From: Massilimicrobiota sp. An134
Lineage (GTDB): Bacteria > Bacillota_I > Bacilli_A > Erysipelotrichales > Coprobacillaceae
Assembly: GCF_002160815.1 (NCBI RefSeq)
Contig: NZ_NFLH01000003.1
Coordinates: 62,001-126,000 of the forward strand
Length of the DNA stretch: 64,000 nucleotides
Direction: 5' to 3'
Positions 14,013-17,364 of this stretch are shown piece after piece. A program made the position numbers and the translations under genes. Positions within the stretch are counted from its first letter, which is position 1. Each line of letters opens with the position of its first letter. Below the pieces are notes generated by a model. The model made no database searches. It saw nothing but the letters and a program-made list of their open reading frames with translations, and was not told where the DNA came from.

Positions 14013-14780
14013 TTATTTTGTTTGAGGTGTTCTAAACATAATATAAATAGGTACAGCCAATAAAACACTACCACCTATAATATTTCCAAGTGTTGATATG
14101 AGCATATGTAGTGGAAGCATTGACCAGTCAATTGTTGAACCTAGCTGTGTGATTCCCATTGTAAAAATACCACCATTTGCAATACAGTGTTCAAATCCTG
14201 GTAAAACAAATGTCATAACCAAAATCATAATCACAATTAATCTGGCTGTTTCATCTTTAATCTTAACTCCTGAATATGCTGCAACACAAACAATGAAGTT
14301 ACACAAAATTCCTTTGATTAATAAATCAATGACATCAAAATTTAACTTAGATTCCATAATTCCCTTTAAATAAGGTTGCATAATCACTTCTTGAGCACCA
14401 CTTTTAATAAATAAGAAACAAATCAAAGATATACCAATCATATTTCCTATATAACAGACAACCCACATTGGCATAATCTCTTTTAATTTCATGTCACCTC
14501 TTAATACAGGCATGATTGTTACAAAACAATTTCCAGTAAATAATTCAGCCCCTAGATAAACAATAGCTACTAAACCAATTCCAAAAGACGCAGCCACAGC
14601 GATCTTTCCAACAACACTATGGTCACTTAACATAGCTCCTAATGTATAAGATAAAATAGCAGCCAATCCCAAATATGCCCCTGCCATAAATGCTCTTACA
14701 AAGAAACGTTTTGGATCTGTTTTCATTAAATTGATTTTAATATTTGCTAATTTACAAAGTGTTTCAATATCACCAATCAT
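14013..14780 (-). CDS. formate/nitrite transporter (FNT) family channel
   Basis: Pentameric anion channel family, 255 residues, six membrane helices. Diagnostic parts are GAELFTGNCF after helix 2 (the omega-loop region) and GFEHCIANGG, which holds the conserved central histidine of FocA-like channels, plus NIIGGSVLLAVPIY in the last helix. Substrate could be formate, nitrite, hydrosulphide or lactate; the sequence alone does not decide, although a fermentative host favours formate. The ATG is preceded by AAAGGAGAG. It is monocistronic with its own promoter and terminator. Confidence 0.9.
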   Translation of the reverse strand: MIGDIETLCKLANIKINLMKTDPKRFFVRAFMAGAYLGLAAILSYTLGAMLSDHSVVGKIAVAASFGIGLVAIVYLGAELFTGNCFVTIMPVLRGDMKLKEIMPMWVVCYIGNMIGISLICFLFIKSGAQEVIMQPYLKGIMESKLNFDVIDLLIKGILCNFIVCVAAYSGVKIKDETARLIVIMILVMTFVLPGFEHCIANGGIFTMGITQLGSTIDWSMLPLHMLISTLGNIIGGSVLLAVPIYIMFRTPQTK

Positions 14781-14805
14781 AGTCCCTCTCCTTTAAACCA
14801 AAAAC

Positions 14806-14834
14806 ATTATATAAGATACGACAAAAAAAGGCAA
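14806..14834 (-). promoter_or_regulatory. promoter of FNT gene
   Basis: Minus strand TTGCCT (14829-14834), 17-base spacer, TATAAT (14806-14811), 26 bases before the start codon. Confidence 0.7.
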
Positions 14835-14891
14835 AACTTTTTCCATGTTTTTCTAAAAAGTTCTTTCTTTGGCTTCAATGTAAATATTTTT

Positions 14892-14958
14892 TTAAGTTTA
14901 TGTTAAAACTTTACATAAACTTAACATAATATATATGTAATATTAACGATAGTTTACA
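14892..14958 (+). promoter_or_regulatory. Pho-box-like repeats and perfect inverted repeat before pstS
   Basis: TTTACA (14910) and TTAACA (14921) are 11 bases apart; weaker TATATG (14932) and TTAACG (14943) keep the same phase and TTTACA follows at 14953. This resembles PhoP boxes of Bacillus, which are TTAACA-type direct repeats spaced by about 5 bases. A perfect 12-bp inverted repeat TTAAGTTTATGT / ACATAAACTTAA (14892-14903, 14913-14924) overlaps it. No consensus -35 is evident, as expected for an activated promoter. Confidence 0.65.
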
Positions 14959-15007
14959 AGAAATTTGTTAAAGTATGAGTGATTAAAAATAAAGGATGGA
15001 ATCAATA

Positions 15008-15826
15008 ATGAAAAAGTTTGGAATATTAGTTATAGTCTTTATGGTTTGTTTAGCATTTCTTGGATTTTCAGCCAATGCTGATATAGAAACACAAAAAATC
15101 AGTTTAAATGGTTCAACATCTATGGAAAAAATGATTAATGCTGTTAAAGAAGGCATTGAAGAAAATTATCCAGAATTATCACTTGAACCACAGTTCACTG
15201 GTTCAAGTGCTGGGATTGAAGCTGTTCTCAATGGAACTGCTGATATTGGTAACTCTTCTCGTTATCTCAAAGATGCTGAAAAAGAAAAAGGTTTAACAGA
15301 AAATATTGTAGCCATTGATGCGATTGTGATTGTGACAGATACACAAAATAAAGTCGATAACTTAACAACTCAACAGTTAATAGATATTTATAAAGGAAAA
15401 ATTCGTAACTGGAAAGAAGTTGGAGGAGAAGATCTTCCTATTGTTGTGATTGGGCGTGAGTCTGGTTCTGGAACACGTAGTGCTTTTGAAGAAATATTGA
15501 ATATTGAAGAACAATGTCAATATGCCAATGAAGTCAATGAAACTGGTCCAATCATTGCAAAAGTTCAGTCTATTCCTGGGGCTATTGGTTATGTATCATT
15601 AGATGTTATTGATGAAACAGTAAAACCTCTATCTATTGATGGTGTTCAAGCCAGTGAAGAAACAATTCAAAATGGACAATATTCTTTACAAAGACCATTT
15701 GTGATGGCAACTAGAGGAGCTATCAACCAACAAAATGAAAATATTCAACATCTTTTCCAATTCATTCAAAGTGAAGACGGACAAAAAATCATACGTGCTG
15801 TTGGTCTTGTTCCTGTCGTTGAATAA
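15008..15826 (+). CDS. pstS: PstS-like phosphate-binding protein
   Basis: Extracytoplasmic phosphate-binding protein, 272 residues from the ATG at 15008 (AAAGGATGGA 7 nt upstream; the ATG at 14996 overlaps that site). It has a signal peptide (~25 residues) with an AxA-type end at SANA-D. The mature protein starts with ISLNGSTSMEKMI, the phosphate-contacting SGST-like loop, then FTGSSAGIEAVLNGTADIG and GRESGSGTRSAFEE, all hallmarks of PstS. No lipobox cysteine is visible, so it would be released or wall-held rather than a lipoprotein, which is unusual in Gram-positives. No pstCAB genes follow; they must lie elsewhere. Confidence 0.9.
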   Translation: MKKFGILVIVFMVCLAFLGFSANADIETQKISLNGSTSMEKMINAVKEGIEENYPELSLEPQFTGSSAGIEAVLNGTADIGNSSRYLKDAEKEKGLTENIVAIDAIVIVTDTQNKVDNLTTQQLIDIYKGKIRNWKEVGGEDLPIVVIGRESGSGTRSAFEEILNIEEQCQYANEVNETGPIIAKVQSIPGAIGYVSLDVIDETVKPLSIDGVQASEETIQNGQYSLQRPFVMATRGAINQQNENIQHLFQFIQSEDGQKIIRAVGLVPVVE

Positions 15827-15882: not shown

Positions 15883-15957
15883 TTTGTCATTAATAAAAGA
15901 GGTAGTTATGATATTGACACTTTTATTTATCTTTTATATACTAAATATCGTTCATAC

Positions 15958-15995
15958 ACTGGTTCGAGAGCCAAACCCAGTATAAAAAACTAAGG
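15958..15995 (+). ncRNA. preQ1-I riboswitch aptamer
   Basis: P1 is ACTGG (15958-15962) pairing with CCAGT (15977-15981), followed by the A-rich tail ATAAAAAACTAAGG (15982-15995), which from memory is identical to the tail of the well-known Bacillus preQ1-I aptamer, and the stem is followed by the conserved TTC. The class senses preQ1, the queuosine precursor. It lies 66 nt before an ECF S-component and radical SAM gene, giving strong functional context. Binding normally lowers expression. Confidence 0.92.
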
Positions 15996-16046
15996 AAAAG
16001 AGATGGCTCACCATCTCTTTTCTGGCTTCTAACTGTTTTTTAGAAG
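15996..16046 (+). promoter_or_regulatory. riboswitch expression platform: two hairpins before qrtT
   Basis: AAAAGAGATGG / CCATCTCTTTT (15996-16021) forms an 11-bp stem with loop CTCA right after the aptamer. A second hairpin CTTCTAA / TTAGAAG (16026-16046), whose loop and 3' arm contain a run of six T, abuts the ribosome site AAAGG. GAGCCA of the aptamer (15968-15973) is complementary to TGGCTC (16004-16009) in the first hairpin, offering an alternative fold. Whether control is transcriptional or translational is not decided. Confidence 0.6.
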
Positions 16047-16061
16047 AAAGGAAAATGAAAT

Positions 16062-16661
16062 ATGAAAAAGAAAACAAAAATGCAAATGGTTATTGTCATG
16101 GGAATTGTTTTCAATGTTATGGGAGCATTCATTGCTATGACACTCTCTATTCCATTTTATATGGATTCTATTGGAACCATATTGGTGGCCGGACTTTTAG
16201 GTCCTAAATATGCCATGTTAACGGGTGTATTAGGAAGTATAACGAGTGGAATCACTTTTGATATCTATTCCTTCTATTATGCTCCTGTGCAACTGTTCAC
16301 AGGCTTCTTTGCTGGATTACTCTATCACGGCAAATGGCTCAAAGGATGGCGTACACCTATTGGTTCATTATTAGTTGGTATTCCAACATCATTATTGAGT
16401 GCCTGCATTACAGCTGGTTTATTTAACGGAATCACTTCTGGTGCCAGCAGCACTTTTGTTGTTGTCTTTCATCACTTAGGATTACCATTAGTATTCAGTA
16501 TCTTGCTTGTTCAAGTTTTTACTGATTACTTGGATAAATTCTTTGCCGTATGTCTGACAAAGGCGATTATTGAAAGAGGACATCTTTATGAGAAATGGGG
16601 GATAGCATGGAAAGATACAGCCGCATTGAAAACAAGCACAAAAGAGAAATCGTTCTTTTAA
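16062..16661 (+). CDS. qrtT: ECF transporter S-component, probably for queuosine precursors
   Basis: Membrane substrate-binding subunit of an energy-coupling-factor transporter, 199 residues with about six helices. YMDSIGTILVAGLLGPKYAM and YSFYYAPVQLFTGFFAGLLY are typical of this ECF S-component group. The preQ1-I riboswitch immediately upstream and the radical SAM gene overlapping its 3' end indicate that it imports queuosine, queuine or another 7-deazaguanine (QrtT role). Shared EcfA/EcfT components are not in this window. The start ATG has GAAAGG upstream. The riboswitch link is seen; the precise substrate is inferred. Confidence 0.82.
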   Translation: MKKKTKMQMVIVMGIVFNVMGAFIAMTLSIPFYMDSIGTILVAGLLGPKYAMLTGVLGSITSGITFDIYSFYYAPVQLFTGFFAGLLYHGKWLKGWRTPIGSLLVGIPTSLLSACITAGLFNGITSGASSTFVVVFHHLGLPLVFSILLVQVFTDYLDKFFAVCLTKAIIERGHLYEKWGIAWKDTAALKTSTKEKSFF

Positions 16662-17296
16662 AAGCCAGACCATGTGCCTGGTCAAAATGCACATTTTGTG
16701 ATTATATTGAAGATAATTCTACATGTACAGAAGAAATGATCAAAATCAATCAGGACGTTTTAAGTCATGTCACTGGTGAATATGGTGTTTTAGAAATCAT
16801 TGACTCTGCTAGTATTTTTGAATTACCTCAAGCAACACTATCACTGATTAAACAAATTATTCATGATAAAAATATTCACACACTCTTTGTAGAAAGTCAC
16901 TGGATTTATCATCAACGTATTCAGGAAATCAGAGATTTCTTTGGTATTGATATGATTGTAAAAATTGGTGTTGAATCTTTTGATGATGATTTTAGAAATC
17001 GTGTTCTCAATAAGAATGCGACTTTTTCAAGCATTGAGGAATTAAAAAAATATTTTGATTCACCTTGCCTGATGGTTGGTATTCAAGGACAAACAAAAGA
17101 AATGATTCAAAAAGATATGGATATTTTAACTCATCATTTCGATTATGGAACAATCAATATTTATCGTAATAATTCAACACCTATCAAAAGAGATGAATCT
17201 TTAATTCAATGGTTTATGCAAAACTATGCCTATTTACAAGATGATCCACGCTATGACTTTTTATGTGATCCTACTGATTTTGGTGTAGGAGATTAA
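16607..17296 (+). CDS. queL: radical SAM protein, probable queuine lyase (QueL-like)
   Basis: 229-residue radical SAM protein. The cluster motif is CAWSKCTFCDY, i.e. CX4CX2C rather than the canonical CX3CX2C, near residue 28. Later segments (VESHWIYHQRIQEIRDFFG, KIGVESFDDDFRNRVLNKN) fit a partial TIM barrel. In the queuosine salvage route described from Clostridioides difficile, QrtT imports the base, QueK hydrolyses queuosine and the radical SAM QueL converts queuine to preQ1; this gene is riboswitch-linked to qrtT, so QueL is the best call. The start is the ATG at 16607 (GGGG five nt upstream); it overlaps qrtT by 55 nt. No QueK is present. Confidence 0.78.
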   Translation: MERYSRIENKHKREIVLLKARPCAWSKCTFCDYIEDNSTCTEEMIKINQDVLSHVTGEYGVLEIIDSASIFELPQATLSLIKQIIHDKNIHTLFVESHWIYHQRIQEIRDFFGIDMIVKIGVESFDDDFRNRVLNKNATFSSIEELKKYFDSPCLMVGIQGQTKEMIQKDMDILTHHFDYGTINIYRNNSTPIKRDESLIQWFMQNYAYLQDDPRYDFLCDPTDFGVGD

Positions 17297-17312
17297 TACA
17301 ATTGAAATATAC

Positions 17313-17348
17313 AAAAAAATGTACGACACACACATCGTACATTTTTTT
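17313..17348 (+). terminator. bidirectional terminator
   Basis: AAAAAAATGTACGA and TCGTACATTTTTTT form a perfect stem with loop CACACACA, serving queL and the converging gene at 17365. Confidence 0.92.
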
Positions 17349-17364
17349 ATACCCATCACAATAT

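Follow-up and report, generated by a model that had tools for sequence, protein, structure and literature searches.

A preQ1 riboswitch, an ECF S-component and a queuine lyase homologue form a predicted queuine-salvage operon in Massilimicrobiota

Introduction

A short operon of Massilimicrobiota sp. An134, headed by a preQ1-I riboswitch, raises the question of which queuosine (Q) precursor this bacterium takes up and how that precursor becomes preQ1. A preliminary description of the locus, which lies in the 64,000-nucleotide stretch of DNA analysed here as a whole (the window), proposed that queuine or queuosine is salvaged from the surroundings and turned into preQ1, with preQ1 feedback. This kind of unit is already known: it is the C. 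difficile queK-qrtT-queL operon, which has a preQ1-I riboswitch and belongs to a bacterium that does not make preQ1 de novo (PMC11477304), here minus queK. The two have in common a preQ1-I riboswitch, an ECF S-component and a queuine lyase in one operon; they differ in that the genome studied here, the unit included, lacks queK (PF01156 search), and in that gene 1, likened to QrtT by description and operon context, may be of another family.

Organization of the operon

The features of the unit are collected in Table 1. The open reading frames of genes 1 and 2 overlap on the plus strand, 3' of the aptamer. Promoter sites of the quality found at 15914–15942 are frequent by chance, and the main argument for this one is its position. 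The start of queL is probably 16607 rather than 16595, because a GGGGGA ribosome-binding site lies just 5' of it and most relatives start with M-x-RYS. The order riboswitch, S-component, QueL is found again in related genomes, with protein identities of 60–92%, and the arrangement is therefore not due to chance.

Table 1. Features of the riboswitch–S-component–queL unit, in window coordinates
Feature	Position	Strand	Basis or remark
Sigma-70 type promoter, TTGACA-17-TATACT	15914..15942	+	11/12 consensus matches, directly 5' of aptamer
preQ1-I riboswitch aptamer	15953..15999	+	Rfam RF00522, 46.3 bits vs gathering score 39
Expression-platform hairpin, 12 bp, loop CTCA, terminator-like	15995..16022	+	Sequence; base-stem covariation in relatives
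Second hairpin, CTTCTAA...TTAGAAG, conserved, directly 5' of ribosome-binding site	16026..16046	+	Pairs kept, 25 leaders
Gene 1, ECF transporter S-component, predicted queuine/Q-precursor binding subunit (QrtT-like)	16062..16661	+	199 aa
Gene 2, queL, radical SAM queuine lyase (predicted)	16607..17296	+	Longest ORF 16595–17296, 233 aa
Likely bidirectional terminator: hairpin flanked by A/T runs	17309..17352	.	Strong; closes unit

Just 5' of the unit (14013–15826), the minus strand encodes a formate/nitrite transporter and the plus strand a phosphate-binding-like protein; a formate/nitrite transporter gene is also found 5' of the riboswitch in another genome, G032 (L074).

The preQ1-I riboswitch and its expression platform

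The RF00522 match exceeds the curated gathering score (E 3.2e-6 in 64 kb) and is the only match of this family in the 2.56-Mb genome. The aptamer tail reads ATAAAAAACTAAGG, exactly as quoted in the preliminary description, whose assignment of the element to the preQ1-I consensus, tail included, is confirmed. Rfam also gave weak sub-threshold matches in the vicinity (SSRC8, MIR8008 and others), which were judged to be noise. The element at 15953–15999 is predicted to bind preQ1 and to control expression, and we infer the direction and mode of this regulation from the leader that follows it.

The leaders of 25 units of the same bacterial family, located 5' of QueT or of the S-component, were compared, and beyond the aptamer they have further structure in common. 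A hairpin of variable length comes next, and in its base stem changes on both sides preserve the pairing at columns 39–100 (GC in 18 leaders, AT in 7), 41–98 (TA in 11, CG in 8) and 42–97; the second hairpin shows compensatory changes at two pairs. The apical TGGCTC of the first hairpin (16004–16009) is complementary to GAGCCA of the aptamer loop (15968–15973). Both sides are changed together in one leader (L060, AAAGCCA with TGGCTTT), and both counterparts are lost in another (L086), a co-variation and co-loss that is suggestive of an antiterminator pairing. For the leader in the window, transcriptional control is the likelier reading, though unproven.

Three QueT leaders of one genus, g11 (L079, L080 and L081), have a first hairpin of only a few bases and without a U-run, and they keep the hairpin before the ribosome-binding site; these leaders probably act on translation. 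Control thus seems to have shifted from transcription to translation inside one family.

The S-component and its cargo

As modelled, the product of gene 1 has the fold of an ECF S-component: the AlphaFold (AF2) model (pLDDT 78.8) matches RibU with a Z score of 15.0 and ThiT with 13.9, FolT and BioY also match, and ranks 1–20 of the structure comparison are all S-components. Sequence searches place the protein less closely. It scores 24.1 bits against PF12822 (gathering score 30.7, E 4.2e-5), a family that all 16 of its relatives match with E values up to 0.01, and 61.3 bits against NF045596, the CD3073 S-component family, below the cut-off of 180; that family is a related but different group. 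The search of gene 1 with PF06177 (QueT) gave no match, and the PDB sequence search matched no solved structure.

The S-component is present in 13 of 43 family genomes, each time directly 5' of QueL, and in none of the 43 does it occur without an adjacent QueL. Gene 1 most likely carries a queuosine precursor, a substrate that we infer from its occurrence in the family only beside QueL and under a preQ1 riboswitch. The preliminary description went further and called it QrtT. That name is reasonable, because published work assigns the C. difficile QrtT, encoded in the queK-qrtT-queL operon, to the PF12822 S-components (PMC11477304, PMC11130926), and gene 1 has the corresponding setting, sharing with queL an operon that is headed by a preQ1 riboswitch. 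The S-component fold and the constant pairing with QueL stand, but the name follows that description, with the cut-offs of both PF12822 and NF045596 missed, and is unproven. A tentative and rather doubtful extension is that gene 1 represents a separate S-component subfamily specific for the queuine base, distinct from both the C. difficile QrtT and QueT, which co-evolved with QueL in importers of the free base that need no hydrolase.

The queuosine pathway elsewhere in the genome

The genes tgt, queA and queH are contiguous in the genome. The pocket of the TGT enzyme reads GGTSVGE, and queuine-using (q-type) enzymes are known to carry GG[LS][AS]G where preQ1-using ones have valine (PMC10723273); judging by this motif, the enzyme appears to be of the preQ1 type. 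QueC was absent from the genome in the family search, and the genome seems, by this absence, unable to make preQ1. In genomes with QueL, the weak QueC matches cover just short segments of longer proteins, and they were not scored as QueC. The dependence on salvage that had been proposed for this organism is supported by these findings. The genome has a single EcfT gene, located with EcfA genes and truA, and the S-component should therefore use this shared EcfA1-A2-T module.

A QueT gene lies elsewhere in the genome (C34:80916; L106, G000:C34:80300-81700) behind a short leader that has no preQ1 riboswitch, so that preQ1 uptake need not depend on the riboswitch–S-component–QueL unit. There seem to be two inputs to preQ1, namely direct uptake by QueT and the uptake and cleavage of queuine by the unit. 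The proposed salvage of queuine by the unit is coherent, with the qualification that preQ1 may also be taken up separately. In many relatives QueT has a preQ1 riboswitch, whereas in this genus the riboswitch seems to have been given over to the QueL unit; one family genome (G004) has it at both QueT and the QueL unit.

The notion that the S-component imports mainly preQ1, with queuine for QueL entering by another route, draws on the fact that the riboswitch senses preQ1 and that the same riboswitch in the family also precedes QueT proteins, predicted preQ1 transporters (PMC6593275). It is unlikely, given that the genome already has QueT and that the S-component never occurs without QueL in the family.

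No QueK-family nucleoside hydrolase (PF01156) and no Qng1 (PF10343) was found in the genome. The assembly consists of 94 contigs and was scored 100% complete, which makes the lack of QueK likely, not absolute. Because both are missing, free queuine is the likely substrate of the unit, as far as known hydrolase families go; of the two options that the preliminary description had left, free queuine or a QueK encoded elsewhere, the first is favoured. That the indirect route could have a branch in which the base is imported and QueK is not needed had already been foreseen (PMC10723273). Breakdown of tRNA releases queuosine, and a single C. difficile QrtT is able to import all of preQ1, queuine and queuosine (PMC11130926), and hence the S-component might import the nucleoside queuosine (or its phosphate), from which an unrecognised hydrolase would free queuine for QueL. 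With neither hydrolase family in the genome, and no hydrolase gene recognised in the units of the relatives read, this is quite improbable.

The queuine lyase

Gene 2 is predicted to encode QueL, as initially proposed, and by homology would cleave queuine. The sole solved structure that its product matches is 6p78_A, deposited as "Queuine lyase", with 61% identity over 229 residues (residues 3–233, full length; E 1e-93). Across the aligned stretch the 6p78 sequence is letter-for-letter that of QueL in G042, a genome of the same bacterial family (identical copy L038 in the alignment), where the gene stands in a preQ1 riboswitch–QueT–QueL unit. That unit and the one described here share the riboswitch, an S-component and QueL; the S-component there is QueT (PF06177), whereas in Massilimicrobiota it is of the PF12822 type. 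The radical SAM motif CAWSKCTFC (CX4CX2C) is invariant in 19 relatives, with equal spacing in 6p78, and 20 further residues besides the cysteines are invariant in these proteins, down to 33% identity. By QueL identity the genome groups with Massilimicrobiota (87–89% to three records of that genus).

That the enzyme is instead RaSEA-like, acting on another 7-deazaguanine compound, is a suggestion that could be drawn from weak TIGR01210 (archaeosine RaSEA) matches in 17 of the 19 aligned relatives, but it is extremely improbable, since the 58 bits of gene 2 lie far under the cut-off of 212 and the identity to the deposited queuine lyase extends over the full length. Archaeosine RaSEA also acts on a 7-deazaguanine, and the likeness would be a superfamily relationship, not identity. 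As a side observation, the likeness, though weak, is consistent, and it hints that the two radical SAM lyases of 7-deazaguanines have a common origin.

Proposed route of queuine salvage

The reading of the unit as a preQ1-repressed operon for the indirect salvage of queuine is very probably correct. Computation supports it through the riboswitch, the homology of QueL, the fold of the S-component, conservation of the operon, the presence of the partner genes, and the absence of QueC, of a QueK-type hydrolase and of Qng1. When preQ1 is scarce, the aptamer would be unoccupied and the operon transcribed. The S-component, docked on the single shared EcfA1-A2-T module, would bind extracellular queuine and import it, and QueL, with S-adenosylmethionine and its iron-sulphur cluster, would release preQ1 from it. 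The preQ1-specific TGT would then insert preQ1 into tRNA, where QueA and QueH would finish queuosine. As preQ1 accumulates, the aptamer would fold and the downstream hairpin would turn expression off.

The indirect queuine salvage route of C. difficile is in this way extended to a group of gut commensals, in a lean version without QueK. This suggests that free queuine, a gut micronutrient, is an object of competition between these bacteria on one side and the host and other microbes on the other.

Distribution and exchange of the transporter

QueL is patchily distributed, being present in 16 of the 43 family genomes and in 18 of 392 genomes drawn from the phylum (E 0.001), 6 of these 18 being marginal. 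One of these 16 family genomes, G035, also has QueC; the other 15 lack it in full length. In the three family genomes that have QueL without the S-component, the neighbour is QueT (G035, G042) or a QPTR-like protein (G025). Beyond the family, QueL adjoins an S-component of the gene 1 kind in Peptoniphilus and Anaerosalibacter, a QueT-like protein in G338, and a QPTR-like protein in Fusobacterium, Desulfovibrio and G102, the QPTR proteins and the QueT of G338 having been identified by eye from sequence, not by family search. The transporter beside QueL is exchangeable (S-component, QueT or QPTR) while the lyase is constant.

The pairs of QueL with QPTR/YhhQ (COG1738) in G025, Desulfovibrio, Fusobacterium and others resemble the unit in having the lyase beside a Q-precursor transporter; they differ in that this transporter is unrelated to gene 1, and the search for a preQ1 riboswitch at one such locus (L040) gave none. 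Q-precursor transporters are still poorly mapped as to specificity, and the family, with QueL in 16 of 43 genomes beside any of three kinds of transporter, lends itself to testing it.

QueL and the S-component were not found on viral contigs, nor QueL in phages. The plasmid search gave one match, NZ_CP084075.1 (L101), a 2.1-Mb Fusobacterium record in which queL stands beside a QPTR-like gene; the record, catalogued as a plasmid and carrying a single feature annotation, is evidently a chromosome-size replicon. The unit of G032 (L074, L039, L041) is decayed, with QueL split between two frames and the riboswitch parted from the S-component by foreign sequence that contains a transposase-like reading frame. 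Homologues of QueL (L011–L017), in whose neighbouring genes, as far as read, no Q transporter was recognised, occur in Phycisphaerae and other environmental bacteria with 43–46% identity.
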